From Marivivens donghaensis (GTDB lineage: Bacteria > Pseudomonadota > Alphaproteobacteria > Rhodobacterales > Rhodobacteraceae), in the NCBI RefSeq assembly GCF_011806565.1, contig NZ_JAATOP010000002.1, positions 372,001 through 436,000 of the forward strand: a stretch of 64,000 nucleotides of DNA, read 5' to 3'. Below the pieces are notes generated by a model. That model worked only from the letters and a program-made list of their open reading frames with translations, was not told where the DNA came from and did no database searches. How positions within the stretch are numbered: the stretch's first letter is position 1; every line of letters begins with the position of its first letter. This document shows positions 5,363-45,101 of the stretch, piece by piece. Both the position numbers and the translations under genes were made by a program.

Positions 5363-5585
5363 TCACGGGCCGGCGGAAACGCCGGTTCTCGCGCCTTCGG
5401 GATGTCGTTTCGATGCAACATTCCGGCGGAGACGCGCCTGAATGCGATTTTGATCCCGGGATCGGCCCAAAGTCGTGCCGTTTTGACTAACTGACGCTTG
5501 ATTTCCGCACGGTTTGCCAATACATCGCCCGCGATGTTGAACCGGGCCTTGATGCGGCCCCCGAACTCGGAAGGCGCCTTCTCAA

Positions 5586-6761
5586 ATGGCTAAGGCAAAG
5601 TTTGAACGTTCCAAACCGCACGTTAACATTGGCACGATCGGCCACGTTGACCACGGCAAAACCACTCTGACGGCAGCGATCACCAAGTACTTTGGCGATT
5701 TCAAAGCGTACGACCAGATCGACGGCGCACCGGAAGAGAAGGCCCGCGGTATCACCATTTCGACCGCCCACGTCGAATACGAGACCGAAGCACGTCACTA
5801 CGCACACGTCGACTGCCCGGGTCACGCTGACTACGTTAAGAACATGATCACCGGCGCTGCGCAGATGGACGGCGGTATTCTGGTTGTTAACGCAGCTGAC
5901 GGCCCGATGCCGCAGACCCGCGAGCACATCCTTCTGGCTCGCCAGGTTGGCGTTCCGGCTCTGGTTGTGTTCATGAACAAGGTTGACCAGGTTGACGACG
6001 AGGAACTCCTCGAGCTCGTCGAAATGGAAATCCGTGAACTGCTGTCGACCTACGACTTCCCGGGCGACGATATTCCGATCGTAGCAGGTTCGGCTCTGGC
6101 CGCTATGGAAGGCCGCGATCCGGAAATCGGCGAAGAGAAGATCAAGGCTCTGATGGCTGCTGTCGACGAGTACATCCCGACTCCGGCACGTGCTGTTGAC
6201 CAGCCGTTCCTGATGCCGATCGAAGACGTGTTCTCGATCTCGGGTCGTGGTACCGTTGTCACCGGTCGTGTTGAGCGCGGTGTGATCAACGTTGGTGACG
6301 AAATCGAGATCGTGGGTATCCGCGACACCTCGAAGACCACCTGTACCGGCGTTGAAATGTTCCGCAAGCTGCTGGATCGCGGTGAAGCTGGCGACAACAT
6401 CGGCGCCCTGCTGCGCGGTGTTGACCGTGAAGGCGTTGAGCGTGGCCAGGTTCTGTGTAAGCCGGGTTCGGTCAAGCCGCACACCAAGTTCGAAGCCGAG
6501 GTCTACATCCTGACCAAGGAAGAAGGCGGCCGTCACACTCCGTTCTTCGCGAACTACCGTCCGCAGTTCTACTTCCGCACCACCGACGTCACCGGTACCT
6601 GCATCCTGCCGGAAGGCACCGAGATGGTCATGCCGGGCGACAACCTGAAGCTTCAGGGCGAACTGATCGCTCCGATCGCTATGGAAGAAGGCCTGCGCTT
6701 CGCGATCCGCGAAGGCGGCCGCACCGTTGGTTCGGGCGTTGTCTCGAAAATCATCGAGTAA
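5586..6761 (+). CDS. tuf: Elongation factor Tu, copy 1
   Basis: 391 aa. EF-Tu delivers aminoacyl-tRNA to the ribosome as a GTP complex. G1 loop GHVDHGKT is at residues 19-26, the G3 motif is DCPGHADY, and the G4 motif is in FMNKVDQ. Domains 2 and 3 are complete. The protein is identical to the copy at 25071, and identity continues through the downstream terminator, pointing to gene conversion. This copy sits upstream of tRNA-Trp and the secE-nusG-rpl cluster. The upstream gap (5363-5585) must hold its promoter, and I could not choose one confidently. Confidence 0.97.
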
Positions 6762-6786
6762 TTCGGACCAAAATCCGGACTACAAG

Positions 6787-6814
6787 AAGGGTCGCCAATA
6801 GGCGGCCCTTTTTC
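6787..6814 (+). terminator. Rho-independent terminator after tuf copy 1
   Basis: Stem AAGGGTCGCC / GGCGGCCCTT (one G-U pair), loop AATA, then a T-run. Identical to the terminator after tuf copy 2. Confidence 0.9.
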
Positions 6815-25021: not shown

Positions 25022-25070
25022 TTCCCAAATTCGGCAGCCTAGCTGCCTGTGAAAGACTAAGGAGGCCATA

Positions 25071-26246
25071 ATGGCTAAGGCAAAGTTTGAACGTTCCAAA
25101 CCGCACGTTAACATTGGCACGATCGGCCACGTTGACCACGGCAAAACCACTCTGACGGCAGCGATCACCAAGTACTTTGGCGATTTCAAAGCGTACGACC
25201 AGATCGACGGCGCACCGGAAGAGAAGGCCCGCGGTATCACCATTTCGACCGCCCACGTCGAATACGAGACCGAAGCACGTCACTACGCACACGTCGACTG
25301 CCCGGGTCACGCTGACTACGTTAAGAACATGATCACCGGCGCTGCGCAGATGGACGGCGGTATTCTGGTTGTTAACGCAGCTGACGGCCCGATGCCGCAG
25401 ACCCGCGAGCACATCCTTCTGGCTCGCCAGGTTGGCGTTCCGGCTCTGGTTGTGTTCATGAACAAGGTTGACCAGGTTGACGACGAGGAACTCCTCGAGC
25501 TCGTCGAAATGGAAATCCGTGAACTGCTGTCGACCTACGACTTCCCGGGCGACGATATTCCGATCGTAGCAGGTTCGGCTCTGGCCGCTATGGAAGGCCG
25601 CGATCCGGAAATCGGCGAAGAGAAGATCAAGGCTCTGATGGCTGCTGTCGACGAGTACATCCCGACTCCGGCACGTGCTGTTGACCAGCCGTTCCTGATG
25701 CCGATCGAAGACGTGTTCTCGATCTCGGGTCGTGGTACCGTTGTCACCGGTCGTGTTGAGCGCGGTGTGATCAACGTTGGTGACGAAATCGAGATCGTGG
25801 GTATCCGCGACACCTCGAAGACCACCTGTACCGGCGTTGAAATGTTCCGCAAGCTGCTGGATCGCGGTGAAGCTGGCGACAACATCGGCGCCCTGCTGCG
25901 CGGTGTTGACCGTGAAGGCGTTGAGCGTGGCCAGGTTCTGTGTAAGCCGGGTTCGGTCAAGCCGCACACCAAGTTCGAAGCCGAGGTCTACATCCTGACC
26001 AAGGAAGAAGGCGGCCGTCACACTCCGTTCTTCGCGAACTACCGTCCGCAGTTCTACTTCCGCACCACCGACGTCACCGGTACCTGCATCCTGCCGGAAG
26101 GCACCGAGATGGTCATGCCGGGCGACAACCTGAAGCTTCAGGGCGAACTGATCGCTCCGATCGCTATGGAAGAAGGCCTGCGCTTCGCGATCCGCGAAGG
26201 CGGCCGCACCGTTGGTTCGGGCGTTGTCTCGAAAATCATCGAGTAA
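25071..26246 (+). CDS. tuf: Elongation factor Tu, copy 2
   Basis: 391 aa, identical to the product at 5586. This is the classical str-operon position after fusA. A strong ribosome-binding site (AAGGAGG) precedes the ATG, unlike copy 1, whose leader is different. Expression can therefore differ while the protein stays the same. The terminator at 26272-26299 ends the str operon. Confidence 0.97.
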
Positions 26247-26271
26247 TTCGGACCAAAATCCGGACTACAAG

Positions 26272-26299
26272 AAGGGTCGCCAATAGGCGGCCCTTTTTC
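26272..26299 (+). terminator. Rho-independent terminator after tuf copy 2
   Basis: Same stem, loop AATA and T-run as at 6787-6814; part of the duplicated segment. Confidence 0.9.
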
Positions 26300-41921: not shown

Positions 41922-42341
41922 ATGCGTCACGCTCGCGGTTACCGCCGTCTCAACCGTACCCACGAACACCGTAAAGCTCTGCTTTCGAACATGAGCGGCT
42001 CGCTCATCGAGCACGAGCAGATCAAGACCACCCTGCCGAAAGCCAAGGAACTCAAGCGCGTCATCGACAAGCTGATCACCCTCGGCAAGCGCGGCGACAT
42101 TCACGCCCGCCGTCAGGCTGCTGCGATGCTCAAGCAGGACAAGGACGTTGCCAAGCTGTTCGAAGTTCTCGGCCCGCGCTACAAGGACCGCAACGGTGGT
42201 TACTCGCGCGTTCTGAAAGCTGGCTTCCGCTACGGCGACATGGCTCCGATGGCAATCATCGAGCTGGTTGATCGTGATCCGGCTGCTAAGGGCGCTGCTG
42301 ACAAAGCCCGTCTCGAAGCCAAAATGGCCGACGACGAATAA
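41922..42341 (+). CDS. rplQ: 50S ribosomal protein L17
   Basis: 139 aa. The N-terminus [20 protein letters not shown] and the following [19 protein letters not shown] core are typical of L17. AGGAG lies upstream. Last gene of the alpha operon, closed by a strong terminator; the quorum-sensing pair follows. Confidence 0.97.
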
Positions 42342-42426: not shown

Positions 42427-42483
42427 TAAAGTTGATCGCAATACACTTTAAAGTTGACTAAATTTTAAAACAGTTGCCATATA
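42427..42483 (+). promoter_or_regulatory. luxR upstream region: direct repeat and possible promoter
   Basis: TAAAGTTGA occurs at 42427-42435 and again at 42449-42457, 22 bp apart (two helical turns). TTGACT (42454-42459), an 18-bp spacer and CATATA (42478-42483) could be a promoter, but it would start at or near the ATG 42489. An AT-rich island in GC-rich DNA. Confidence 0.4.
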
Positions 42484-42488
42484 GGTGT

Positions 42489-43101
42489 ATGACCTTGGCG
42501 ATTGAAACCGCTAACTACTCGGACAGGCTCGATAAAATCGCGCCTCACGGCTACTTTTACGGATTGCATATCCGGGCCGCGATGCCGCTGTTTTCGGCGC
42601 AGACGTTCCCAAGGGCATGGATGGATCACTATGTCGAGGAGGCCTATGCGCTCCGTGATCCGATCATTGCTTGGGGGGCTTGATCGGGTTGGAACTGCCA
42701 GATGGAGCGAAATAACCATCCCGGACCCGTTCGATATTCTTGGACAGGCTCGCGCATACGGGATGAACTGCGGATTGGCCGTATCGTGCGGTACGCTGAA
42801 ATCCAGAACGATCGCAACTGCCACGCGACCGGATCGCGAATTCACAGAATGTGAAATTGCCGAATTTGCGCATGTCATCGAGGCGATGCATGCCGACTTT
42901 TGCCCCCCGCTGTCCTTGACGGACGCACAATCACAAGCCCTGCGGCGGATCGCCGAGGGGGATCGTCACGCGGCAGCCGCCGCGAAGCTCGGTATCTCAG
43001 AAAGCGCCTTCAAGGCGCGCCTGTCGGACGCCCGTTCGAGCATGCACGCCCGGACAACAGTGGAGGCTATCCAAAAAGCAAGGAGCTACCGTCTGCTTTG
43101 A
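42489..43101 (+). pseudogene. LuxR-family quorum-sensing regulator with a frameshift
   Basis: The first frame, from ATG 42489, encodes the autoinducer-binding domain and stops at TGA 42681-42683. The second frame continues the protein to TGA 43101. The break is a GGGGGG tract (42671-42676); removing one G joins the frames into 203 aa. In the joined protein W44, Y48, D57 and W72 have exactly the spacing of TraR W57, Y61, D70 and W85. The C-terminal half is a GerE-type HTH (ISESAFKARLSDARSSM). It is short for a LuxR. It may be a recent mutation, a sequencing error or slippage-controlled expression. luxI lies 54 nt downstream. Confidence 0.8.
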
Positions 43102-43155
43102 CGCCTTCTCGGACCGGCGCGGGGGAATAACCCTAAAAAACGCTGGAGGCTACAC

Positions 43156-43754: not shown

Positions 43755-43797
43755 AAAGATCGGACATGAGCCTAAGTTGCGCTCATGTCCGATCTTT
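43755..43797 (+). promoter_or_regulatory. Perfect 17-bp hairpin after luxI that includes the rarA start codon
   Basis: AAAGATCGGACATGAGC (43755-43771), a 9-nt loop, then its exact complement (43781-43797), ending in TTTT. The rarA ATG is at 43785, so the 3' arm encodes M-S-D-L and the first two bases of the F codon. It may terminate luxI transcription and also hide the rarA start in long transcripts. Confidence 0.75.
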
Positions 43798-45101
43798 TCG
43801 AAACGCCCTCGGCGACGCCCTCCAACGCCCCGCATCCGCTTGCCGACCGCCTTCGTCCCAAGACGCTGGCAGAGGTTATCGGCCAGAAGCAGGTTATCGG
43901 TGAGGACGGCCCGCTCGGCGTCATGCTCGAATCGGGGTCTCTATCGTCGCTGATCCTCTGGGGGCCACCGGGGGTTGGTAAGACCACGATTGCGCGTCTG
44001 CTGGCGCGCGAGACGGACCTTCACTTCGAACAGATCAGCGCGATTTTCAGCGGCGTGCCGGAGCTTCGCAAAGTGTTCGAAGCGGCCAAGATCAGGCGCG
44101 GCAACGGGCGAGGGACCCTGTTGTTTGTCGACGAGATCCACCGTTTCAACAAAGCGCAGCAGGACAGTTTCCTGCCGCATATGGAGGACGGCACCATTGT
44201 CCTCGTCGGCGCCACGACCGAGAACCCGTCCTTTGAGCTCAACGCCGCTATCCTGAGCCGTTCTCAGGTTCTGGTTCTGACGCGTCTCGACGATGACGAA
44301 CTGGATGCACTGGCGACACGCGCCGAAAAAGAGATCGGGCGCGACCTGCCGCTGGAGCCTTCTGCCCGAACTGCTTTGCTGTCGATGGCGGATGGGGACG
44401 GGCGCACGCTGGTCAATCTGATCGAGCAGGTGTCGGCTTGGAAGGTCACCACTCCGCTCGGCGTCGAGCAGCTCACGACCCGCCTGATGCGCCGCGCTGC
44501 GAAGTACGACAAGTCGGGCGACGAACACTATAACCTCATATCCGCACTACATAAATCCGTGCGCGGGTCCGATCCCGATGCCGCGCTTTACTGGTTTTCG
44601 CGGATGCTCGAAGGCGGTGAGGACCCGCGCTACCTCGCGCGGCGCATCCTGCGTATGTCGGTCGAGGATATCGCGCTCGCCGATCCGCAGGCGCAGACGG
44701 TCTGCCTCCATGCGTGGGAAACTTACGAACGCCTCGGCAGTCCCGAAGGCGAGCTCGCGCTGGCGCAGGCGGTGATCTACCTCGCGCTCGCCCCCAAGAC
44801 CAATGCGGGCTACGTGGCTTACAAAGCGTCCCGCGATGCCGCTCGCAAGTCGGGCAGCGAGCCGCCGCCCAAACATATTCTCAACGCGCCGACAAAGATG
44901 ATGAAGGAACAGGGCTACGGCGCGGGATACGCCTACGATCACGATGCCGAAGACGGGTTTTCGGGTCAGGACTATTTCCCCGACCGCATGCAGCGCCCGA
45001 CGTTCTACGCTCCGGTCGAACGCGGATTTGAGCGAGAGCTGAAAAAACGGGTAGAGTATTTCGCGGGGCTCCGGTCCAAGCGAAACAGTCCCCGCGATTG
45101 A
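43785..45101 (+). CDS. rarA: Replication-associated recombination protein A (AAA ATPase)
   Basis: 438 aa. RarA (MgsA) is an AAA+ ATPase of the clamp-loader type that acts at stalled forks. Walker A GPPGVGKTT is at 60-68, Walker B is LLFVDEIHRFN, and sensor 1 is in GATTENPSFELN. The C-terminal MgsA domain includes EGGEDPRYLARRILRMSVEDI. The start MSDLFETP fits related proteins, but no Shine-Dalgarno is visible and the ATG lies in a hairpin arm. crcB follows after 31 nt. Confidence 0.95.
   Translation: MSDLFETPSATPSNAPHPLADRLRPKTLAEVIGQKQVIGEDGPLGVMLESGSLSSLILWGPPGVGKTTIARLLARETDLHFEQISAIFSGVPELRKVFEAAKIRRGNGRGTLLFVDEIHRFNKAQQDSFLPHMEDGTIVLVGATTENPSFELNAAILSRSQVLVLTRLDDDELDALATRAEKEIGRDLPLEPSARTALLSMADGDGRTLVNLIEQVSAWKVTTPLGVEQLTTRLMRRAAKYDKSGDEHYNLISALHKSVRGSDPDAALYWFSRMLEGGEDPRYLARRILRMSVEDIALADPQAQTVCLHAWETYERLGSPEGELALAQAVIYLALAPKTNAGYVAYKASRDAARKSGSEPPPKHILNAPTKMMKEQGYGAGYAYDHDAEDGFSGQDYFPDRMQRPTFYAPVERGFERELKKRVEYFAGLRSKRNSPRD

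Follow-up and report, generated by a model that had tools for sequence, protein, structure and literature searches.

The window, that is, the whole stretch of 64,000 nucleotides that we analysed, lies within contig 17 of a 3.33-Mb Marivivens genome (G000). On its forward strand, at 42489–43101, it carries a gene of the gtaR/luxR1 type (gtaR or luxR below) that consists of two open reading frames (ORFs) in different frames, joined at a run of G. The position of this gene, after rplQ and upstream of gtaI (luxI), matches that of the gtaR/luxR1 type. The features of the locus are as follows:

41922–42341, + strand: rplQ (ribosomal protein L17), an ORF; the upstream neighbour that anchors the locus
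42444–42458, + strand: conserved promoter block CACTTTAAAGTTGAC with a -35-like TTGAC; the family form is CAATTTAAGGTTGAC, from which the window differs by 2 mismatches
42459–42488, + strand: the place of an operator-like dyad, TTGTCTAAAAAGACAT, in many relatives; unrecognizable in the window (7 mismatches)
42489–42683, + strand: gtaR/luxR piece 1, ATG at 42489, 64 amino acids ending in AWGA*, stop codon at 42681–42683; start of the ligand domain
42673–42678, + strand: run of six G at which the frame changes; G001, the nearest relative, has five G, and the 70 relatives that could be read have four or five
42679–43101, + strand: gtaR/luxR piece 2, in the other frame; remainder of the ligand domain and the probable helix-turn-helix (HTH), matching profile positions 63–203 (E = 1.1e-69)
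43145–43149, + strand: GGAGG, a ribosome-binding-like site of luxI; the same GCTGGAGG block precedes luxI in loci L007, L018, L019, and L028
43156–43746, + strand: gtaI/luxI, AHL synthase, 196 amino acids, intact; Ka/Ks of 0.027 against G001
43785–45101, + strand: ATPase gene, which we take to be of the rarA type; an ORF aligned across the genus, serving as downstream neighbour and synteny marker

The preliminary description of this DNA had reported a frame break at a G run in a luxR gene, and the two ORFs are indeed in different frames; it was also correct in counting six G, although the coordinates that it gave for them (42671–42676) are two bases off. Its expectation that one G fewer would restore a protein of 203 amino acids is borne out by G001, the nearest relative compared (94 per cent identity over a 1.5-kb query), in which the run is five G long and gtaR is open throughout its 203 amino acids; G002, G003, and the metagenome-assembled genome (MAG) L028 agree. 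Piece 1 has a Pfam match to Autoind_bind that is over the cut-off (E = 4.9e-6; E = 1.5e-12 in the intact G001 protein) and stops inside this ligand domain. The GerE match of piece 2 (Pfam E = 0.0026, 17.8 bits) is below the cut-off of 23.5, and in the intact G001 protein a Pfam match to GerE is absent too at E 0.01. The family profile that piece 2 fits also matches solved LuxR proteins, for example, an RhlR variant (positions 22–197). The pocket residues W44, Y48, D57, P58, and W72 are invariant across 15 aligned relatives and correspond to W57/Y61/D70/P71/W85 in the TraR numbering given in section 3.1 of PMC11655674. Because no single ORF covers the whole protein, the window gtaR is a broken copy and not a working member of the gtaR/luxR1-type regulators. 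No second lesion was seen in it.

The luxI partner, in contrast to the broken luxR, is intact, as had been stated. Its product carries an Autoind_synth domain (Pfam E = 2.8e-7), and its residues R25, F29, W35, D46, D49, R70, E113, and R116, which we take to be the catalytic set, are invariant in 12 relatives. An intact gtaI is present at this locus in 7/7 Marivivens species.

In a family sample of 149 genomes, gtaR-type matches at E ≤ 1e-60 occur in 52 (55 matches), and 54 of the 55 extend stop-free from model position ≤7 to ≥202, the exception being the match in the window, with the proviso that this threshold would miss gtaR copies broken into two weak halves. Loci found by luxI similarity give a second view. 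Among the best 80 of 113 such loci, rplQ lies upstream of luxI in 66 (tblastn; several of the others are short pieces), and luxR reaches the model start in 76. The remaining four of these best 80 are L037, in which luxR is out of frame, L049, in which it is cut by the contig end, and L017 and L020, which have no luxR. L037 comes from a MAG of Octadecabacter sp., and its gtaR residues 1–23 are in another frame than the rest, around 800–880, beside a T run; it is not a copy that merely lacks 21 N-terminal positions, because residues 1–23 are present in that other frame. This break, next to a T run in a MAG, is likely an assembly error. At the site of the window's break, 70 of 78 matched luxR segments are readable; five G were counted in 32 of them, four in 38, and six in none.

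A gtaI-type match (E ≤ 1e-50) unaccompanied by a gtaR-type match (E ≤ 1e-60) occurs in 15/62 family genomes. Stretches of 3.5–4 kb around these 15 solo gtaI genes (with downstream flanks of a few hundred bases) showed no gtaR, rplQ, or rarA, so that these solo genes, all outside Marivivens, look like another locus. The reverse state occurs in G013, G051, G057, G097, and G148, which at these thresholds have a gtaR-type match and none of the gtaI type, as has been reported for Cereibacter sphaeroides (see below).

Within the genus, three species (G001, G002, and G003) have an intact gtaR, G000 (the genome of the window) has a frameshifted one, and G004, G005, and G006 have none at the locus. In these last three species, the rplQ match and luxI are separated by 205 bp (G004), 578 bp (G005), and 615 bp (G006), with no LuxR-like ORF between them, and gtaR was not found elsewhere in the three genomes, where the best other match (3.0e-52) is a CerM-like gene. 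The luxI at the locus is thus an orphan in G004–G006; that of the window adjoins a broken luxR. In a search for decayed gtaR in the gaps, the best plus-strand similarity was equalled by 27 (G004), 5 (G005), and 34 (G006) of 100 shuffles, which makes G005 the only marginal case. In G005, the luxI open frame (L154:9238–10014) continues upstream for 63 codons and thereby enters the region that gtaR would occupy.

A FastTree phylogeny of eight neighbouring proteins, including luxI, has the topology (G005,((G004,(G002,G003)),(G006,(G000,G001)))), with internal support of 1.000 except for the grouping of G006 with G000/G001 (0.974) and that of G005 with the rest (0.966). On this tree, parsimony would ask for four gtaR losses, or for three if G006 actually groups with G004 or G005. 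The gap lengths differ and the first promoter block is retained in G005 and G006, not in G004, which points to the losses in G004, G005, and G006 having probably been separate events. Alternatively, the same distribution could have arisen if gtaR was regained by transfer instead of being lost repeatedly. One further MAG (L028, Marivivens sp.), which is outside the seven species in the tree, has both an intact gtaR and the dyad.

The two genes of the pair differ in how strongly they are constrained. Between G000 and G001, luxI has a Ka of 0.0113 and a Ks of 0.416 (Ka/Ks of 0.027), and the two luxR pieces have a Ka of 0.0110 and a Ks of 0.071 (Ka/Ks of approximately 0.155); the median Ka/Ks over 73 pairs of mechanically chosen ORFs is 0.029. 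The synthase is therefore tightly constrained, and the regulator loosely. The earlier statement that both halves of luxR look under selection stands insofar as some weak constraint is visible, but this constraint is looser than that of luxI or of the median ORF. The looseness is not caused by the frameshift, because constraint is also weak between G002 and G003 (Ka 0.0120, Ks 0.121, Ka/Ks of approximately 0.10; luxI Ks 0.426), in which the gene is intact. By reading of the alignment, the private gtaR changes number approximately three non-synonymous and six synonymous in the window and approximately two and three in G001, with no clear excess in the window lineage; those of the window include M at codon 185 (L otherwise invariant) and D at codon 180 and are too few for a test. 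In two pairs, the Ks of gtaR is far below that of the adjoining luxI (0.071 vs 0.416 for window 42489–43101/L007, and 0.121 vs 0.426 for L018/L019). Recombination as the source of the low gtaR divergence between G000 and G001 was considered and not used for dating, gtaR divergence being low between G002 and G003 as well. Elsewhere in the window, two 1.23-kb stretches (5585–6813 and 25070–26299), perhaps duplicated tuf genes, are each 98.8 per cent identical to the G001 counterpart of the other.

Many family loci (L021–L095) share two promoter blocks upstream of luxR, namely, CAATTTAAGGTTGAC and, near the start codon, the dyad TTGTCTAAAAAGACAT. The first block has no mismatches in G005, two in G006, and five in G004 (raw counts). 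The dyad occurs within four mismatches in 50/76 family loci vs 2/380 letter shuffles, a count that is partly circular, the pattern having been derived from the same alignment; only the resemblance of the dyad to the CerM site does not depend on that alignment. The CerM site, TNT(N5)AAGACA(N2)T, which the dyad fits, resembles the GtaR site according to PMC11655674. In the four Marivivens gtaR promoters, the dyad is at chance level (seven mismatches in the window and six in G001, G002, and G003), as it is upstream of luxI in G004–G006 (five to seven mismatches). The genus thus seems to have lost this operator-like site before it lost gtaR. At the same time, 26/76 family loci have more than four dyad mismatches and keep luxR, and because 24 of these loci are outside the genus, loss of the dyad would be permissive at most for loss of gtaR. 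Genome-wide searches for the operator with up to three mismatches gave, as hits/backward control, 10/5 in G000, 10/5 in G001, 12/12 in G002, 19/14 in G003, 33/27 in G004, 18/11 in G005, and 17/19 in G006, a signal too weak to name targets in the seven Marivivens genomes.

The gene at the locus is not the only potential receiver of the signal. On contig 18, G000 also has a luxR adjoining a luxI; contig 22 has a weaker match, of the synthase-like kind, that falls short of the Pfam cut-off; and contig 20 (L156:9396–10601) has two divergent gtaR-related LuxR genes, one with an HTH and one without. Such a pair of an HTH-bearing and an HTH-less LuxR was found in five genomes (L156–L160; Pfam was run on one HTH-bearing G000 protein and both G004 proteins), and this CerM/CerN-like pair is at the same place in G000, G001, G004, G005, and G006. 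G002 and G003 lack it there, and the genes that flank it elsewhere are direct neighbours in these two. The pair is therefore kept in 4/4 gtaR-deficient species, and both species without it keep gtaR. The complementarity is a hint from seven related genomes, its hypergeometric probability (4/4 vs 1/3) being 5/35 = 0.14 when calculated by hand with kinship ignored. The preliminary description had reasoned that an intact luxI next to a broken luxR would mean signalling without this receptor; this reasoning is supported, and widened by the three further species without gtaR at the locus, but the broken protein would not have been the sole receptor.

Whether the six G are real has to be judged from one genome per species, in which the extra base was observed once. 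We lean, with some reserve, towards a genuine loss of a receptor/repressor that was no longer needed, with the synthase kept and its signal perhaps read by the CerM/CerN-like pair. It is possible, if rather doubtful, that the gene of the isolate is intact and that the extra G entered the consensus through an error of sequencing or assembly: the lesion is a lone homopolymer indel in a single genome, the sister copy is intact, no second lesion accompanies it, and the other out-of-frame gtaR, that of L037, is in a MAG beside a T run. Against such a mistake, 36 of the 38 runs of at least six equal bases are indel-free in a 118.7-kb alignment of G000 and G001, the two exceptions being the luxR run and an intergenic one. 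Over the same approximately 118.7 kb, there are 14 frame-breaking indels, of which only that in luxR is well inside a gene (by eye), the rest being at gene ends, at gene starts, or intergenic. Extending the comparison with G001 to 450 kb (405 gene-like G000 ORFs) gave 61 frame-breaking indels, 26 of them flagged in gene-like ORFs: the luxR indel, 14 in mutually compensating groups, 10 near ORF starts, and one 5-bp case. For the 10 near ORF starts, the main ORFs of the two genomes still differ by approximately 2 to 20 per cent in length and the true start is ambiguous; with these 10 left as ambiguous, luxR is alone over the 450 kb in showing an uncompensated frame break deep within a gene. The 5-bp indel (C17:276676) was considered as a second broken gene and is read instead, by eye, as a gene junction, the true start (MKPMKD...) probably coinciding with the indel. 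General sequencing noise as the cause is not supported by either survey, although it keeps a small residual probability. Because the genus loses gtaR repeatedly, the prior for a real loss in the window is also higher. L037 and the 10 ambiguous indels near ORF starts count slightly against a real loss; on balance, we infer that the extra G is probably not a consensus error.

The preliminary description had left open a recent break, an assembly error, and a slippage switch. The break is present in the sequence and has no second lesion beside it, but slippage finds no support, as none of the 70 readable relatives has six G. A switch of this kind, in which cells would gain or lose the sixth G and so activate or silence the receptor, is suggested by the location of the lesion in a mononucleotide run and by the otherwise clean frame. 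However, the run is not maintained (only four G in 38/70 readable relatives), and no copy is out of frame at the same site among the 54 family matches. Phase-variable genes are recognized by a long, maintained repeat tract; gtaR has six G only, and six G is short for a slippage switch. A keyword search of the literature found no paper on a homopolymer switch in a luxR homolog. We regard phase variation here as very improbable. Equally improbable in our view is that the gene is expressed in two pieces or by recoding, either through a frame shift at the G run or with an internal start that would yield the C-terminal HTH part as a protein of its own. From 42502 onwards the second frame is open, and it has an in-frame ATG at 42763, upstream of the HTH (by eye), but the arrangement is absent from the 76 complete copies among the best 80 of 113 loci and from the 54 family matches, and piece 1 terminates inside the ligand domain.

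If the loss is genuine, its consequences can be sketched from related systems. With one G more in the run than the sister species has, translation would end after 64 residues, leaving an incomplete ligand domain and no HTH. In Rhodobacter capsulatus, AHL-free GtaR acts as a repressor of its own operon as well as of gafA, and it lowers ctrA, as described in section 4 of PMC11655674 and in PMC6363796; by analogy, once GtaR is lost, its repression would be expected to be lifted from gtaI, for which a separate GGAGG site is present, and from targets of the gafA type. Such a loss may cost little, because the operator before gtaRI would already have gone and because the divergent CerM/CerN-like pair could answer the same signal, so that the synthase could be kept while the regulator was lost four times. 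More tentatively, GtaI may have become uncoupled from its own LuxR in Marivivens through loss of the operator and then, four times, of the regulator, with the CerM/CerN-type pair taking over the signal and either receiver being droppable; none of the seven species is without both.

By itself, the gtaR frameshift is ordinary gene loss, and its interest comes from the pattern in the genus. Receptor and synthase are usually viewed as a co-evolving pair, and in relatives, according to the literature, the pathway controls gene transfer agents (GTAs) and motility; the GTA marker GTA_TIM is present in 7/7 Marivivens genomes. Repeated loss of one half of the pair among seven related species, in one of them perhaps caught at the first mutation, provides a natural series in which one can ask what use a synthase has without its neighbouring receptor and whether its signal passes to paralogous LuxRs. 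In an unsystematic survey of the literature, we met no precedent for repeated loss of gtaR at gtaRI within one genus, with one of the losses perhaps still at the stage of a single-base break, together with a missing dyad and a paralogous pair.

The Marivivens locus is most readily likened, by description, to gtaR-gtaI of R. capsulatus and luxR1-luxI1 of Dinoroseobacter shibae, in which a LuxR-type gene is also directly upstream of the synthase. The two regulators are syntenic (PMC11655674, section 3.1), D. shibae luxI1 is the master synthase according to PMC6473078, and rplQ is upstream in relatives including two Dinoroseobacter MAGs (L051 and L061). In contrast to these systems, the Marivivens regulator is broken in the window and absent in three sister species, and the dyad is unrecognizable in the genus. 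Orphan luxI genes are already known in roseobacters: PMC3907830 counts 17 luxI homologs unlinked to luxR, topologies H, I, and J of PMC3824088 place orphan luxI beside histidine kinase genes, and sscI of Ruegeria KLH11, an orphan luxI that both papers treat, is proposed to be a duplicate. Marivivens resembles these cases in having an AHL synthase without an adjacent luxR, but, unlike the kinase-side orphans or the duplicate sscI described there, its orphan arises by loss of luxR at a conserved gtaRI locus. C. sphaeroides, as portrayed in PMC11655674, likewise lost one half of gtaRI and has a related LuxR with an HTH and another without; there, CerM is active in the absence of signal and is displaced from DNA by CerN together with AHL. 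The W57F substitution of C. sphaeroides CerM is not found in the Marivivens pair, whose five HTH-bearing proteins retain the W (by eye). The Marivivens pair is divergent. As to which half was lost, the two are mirror images: C. sphaeroides kept gtaR and lost gtaI, whereas Marivivens keeps gtaI and loses gtaR.
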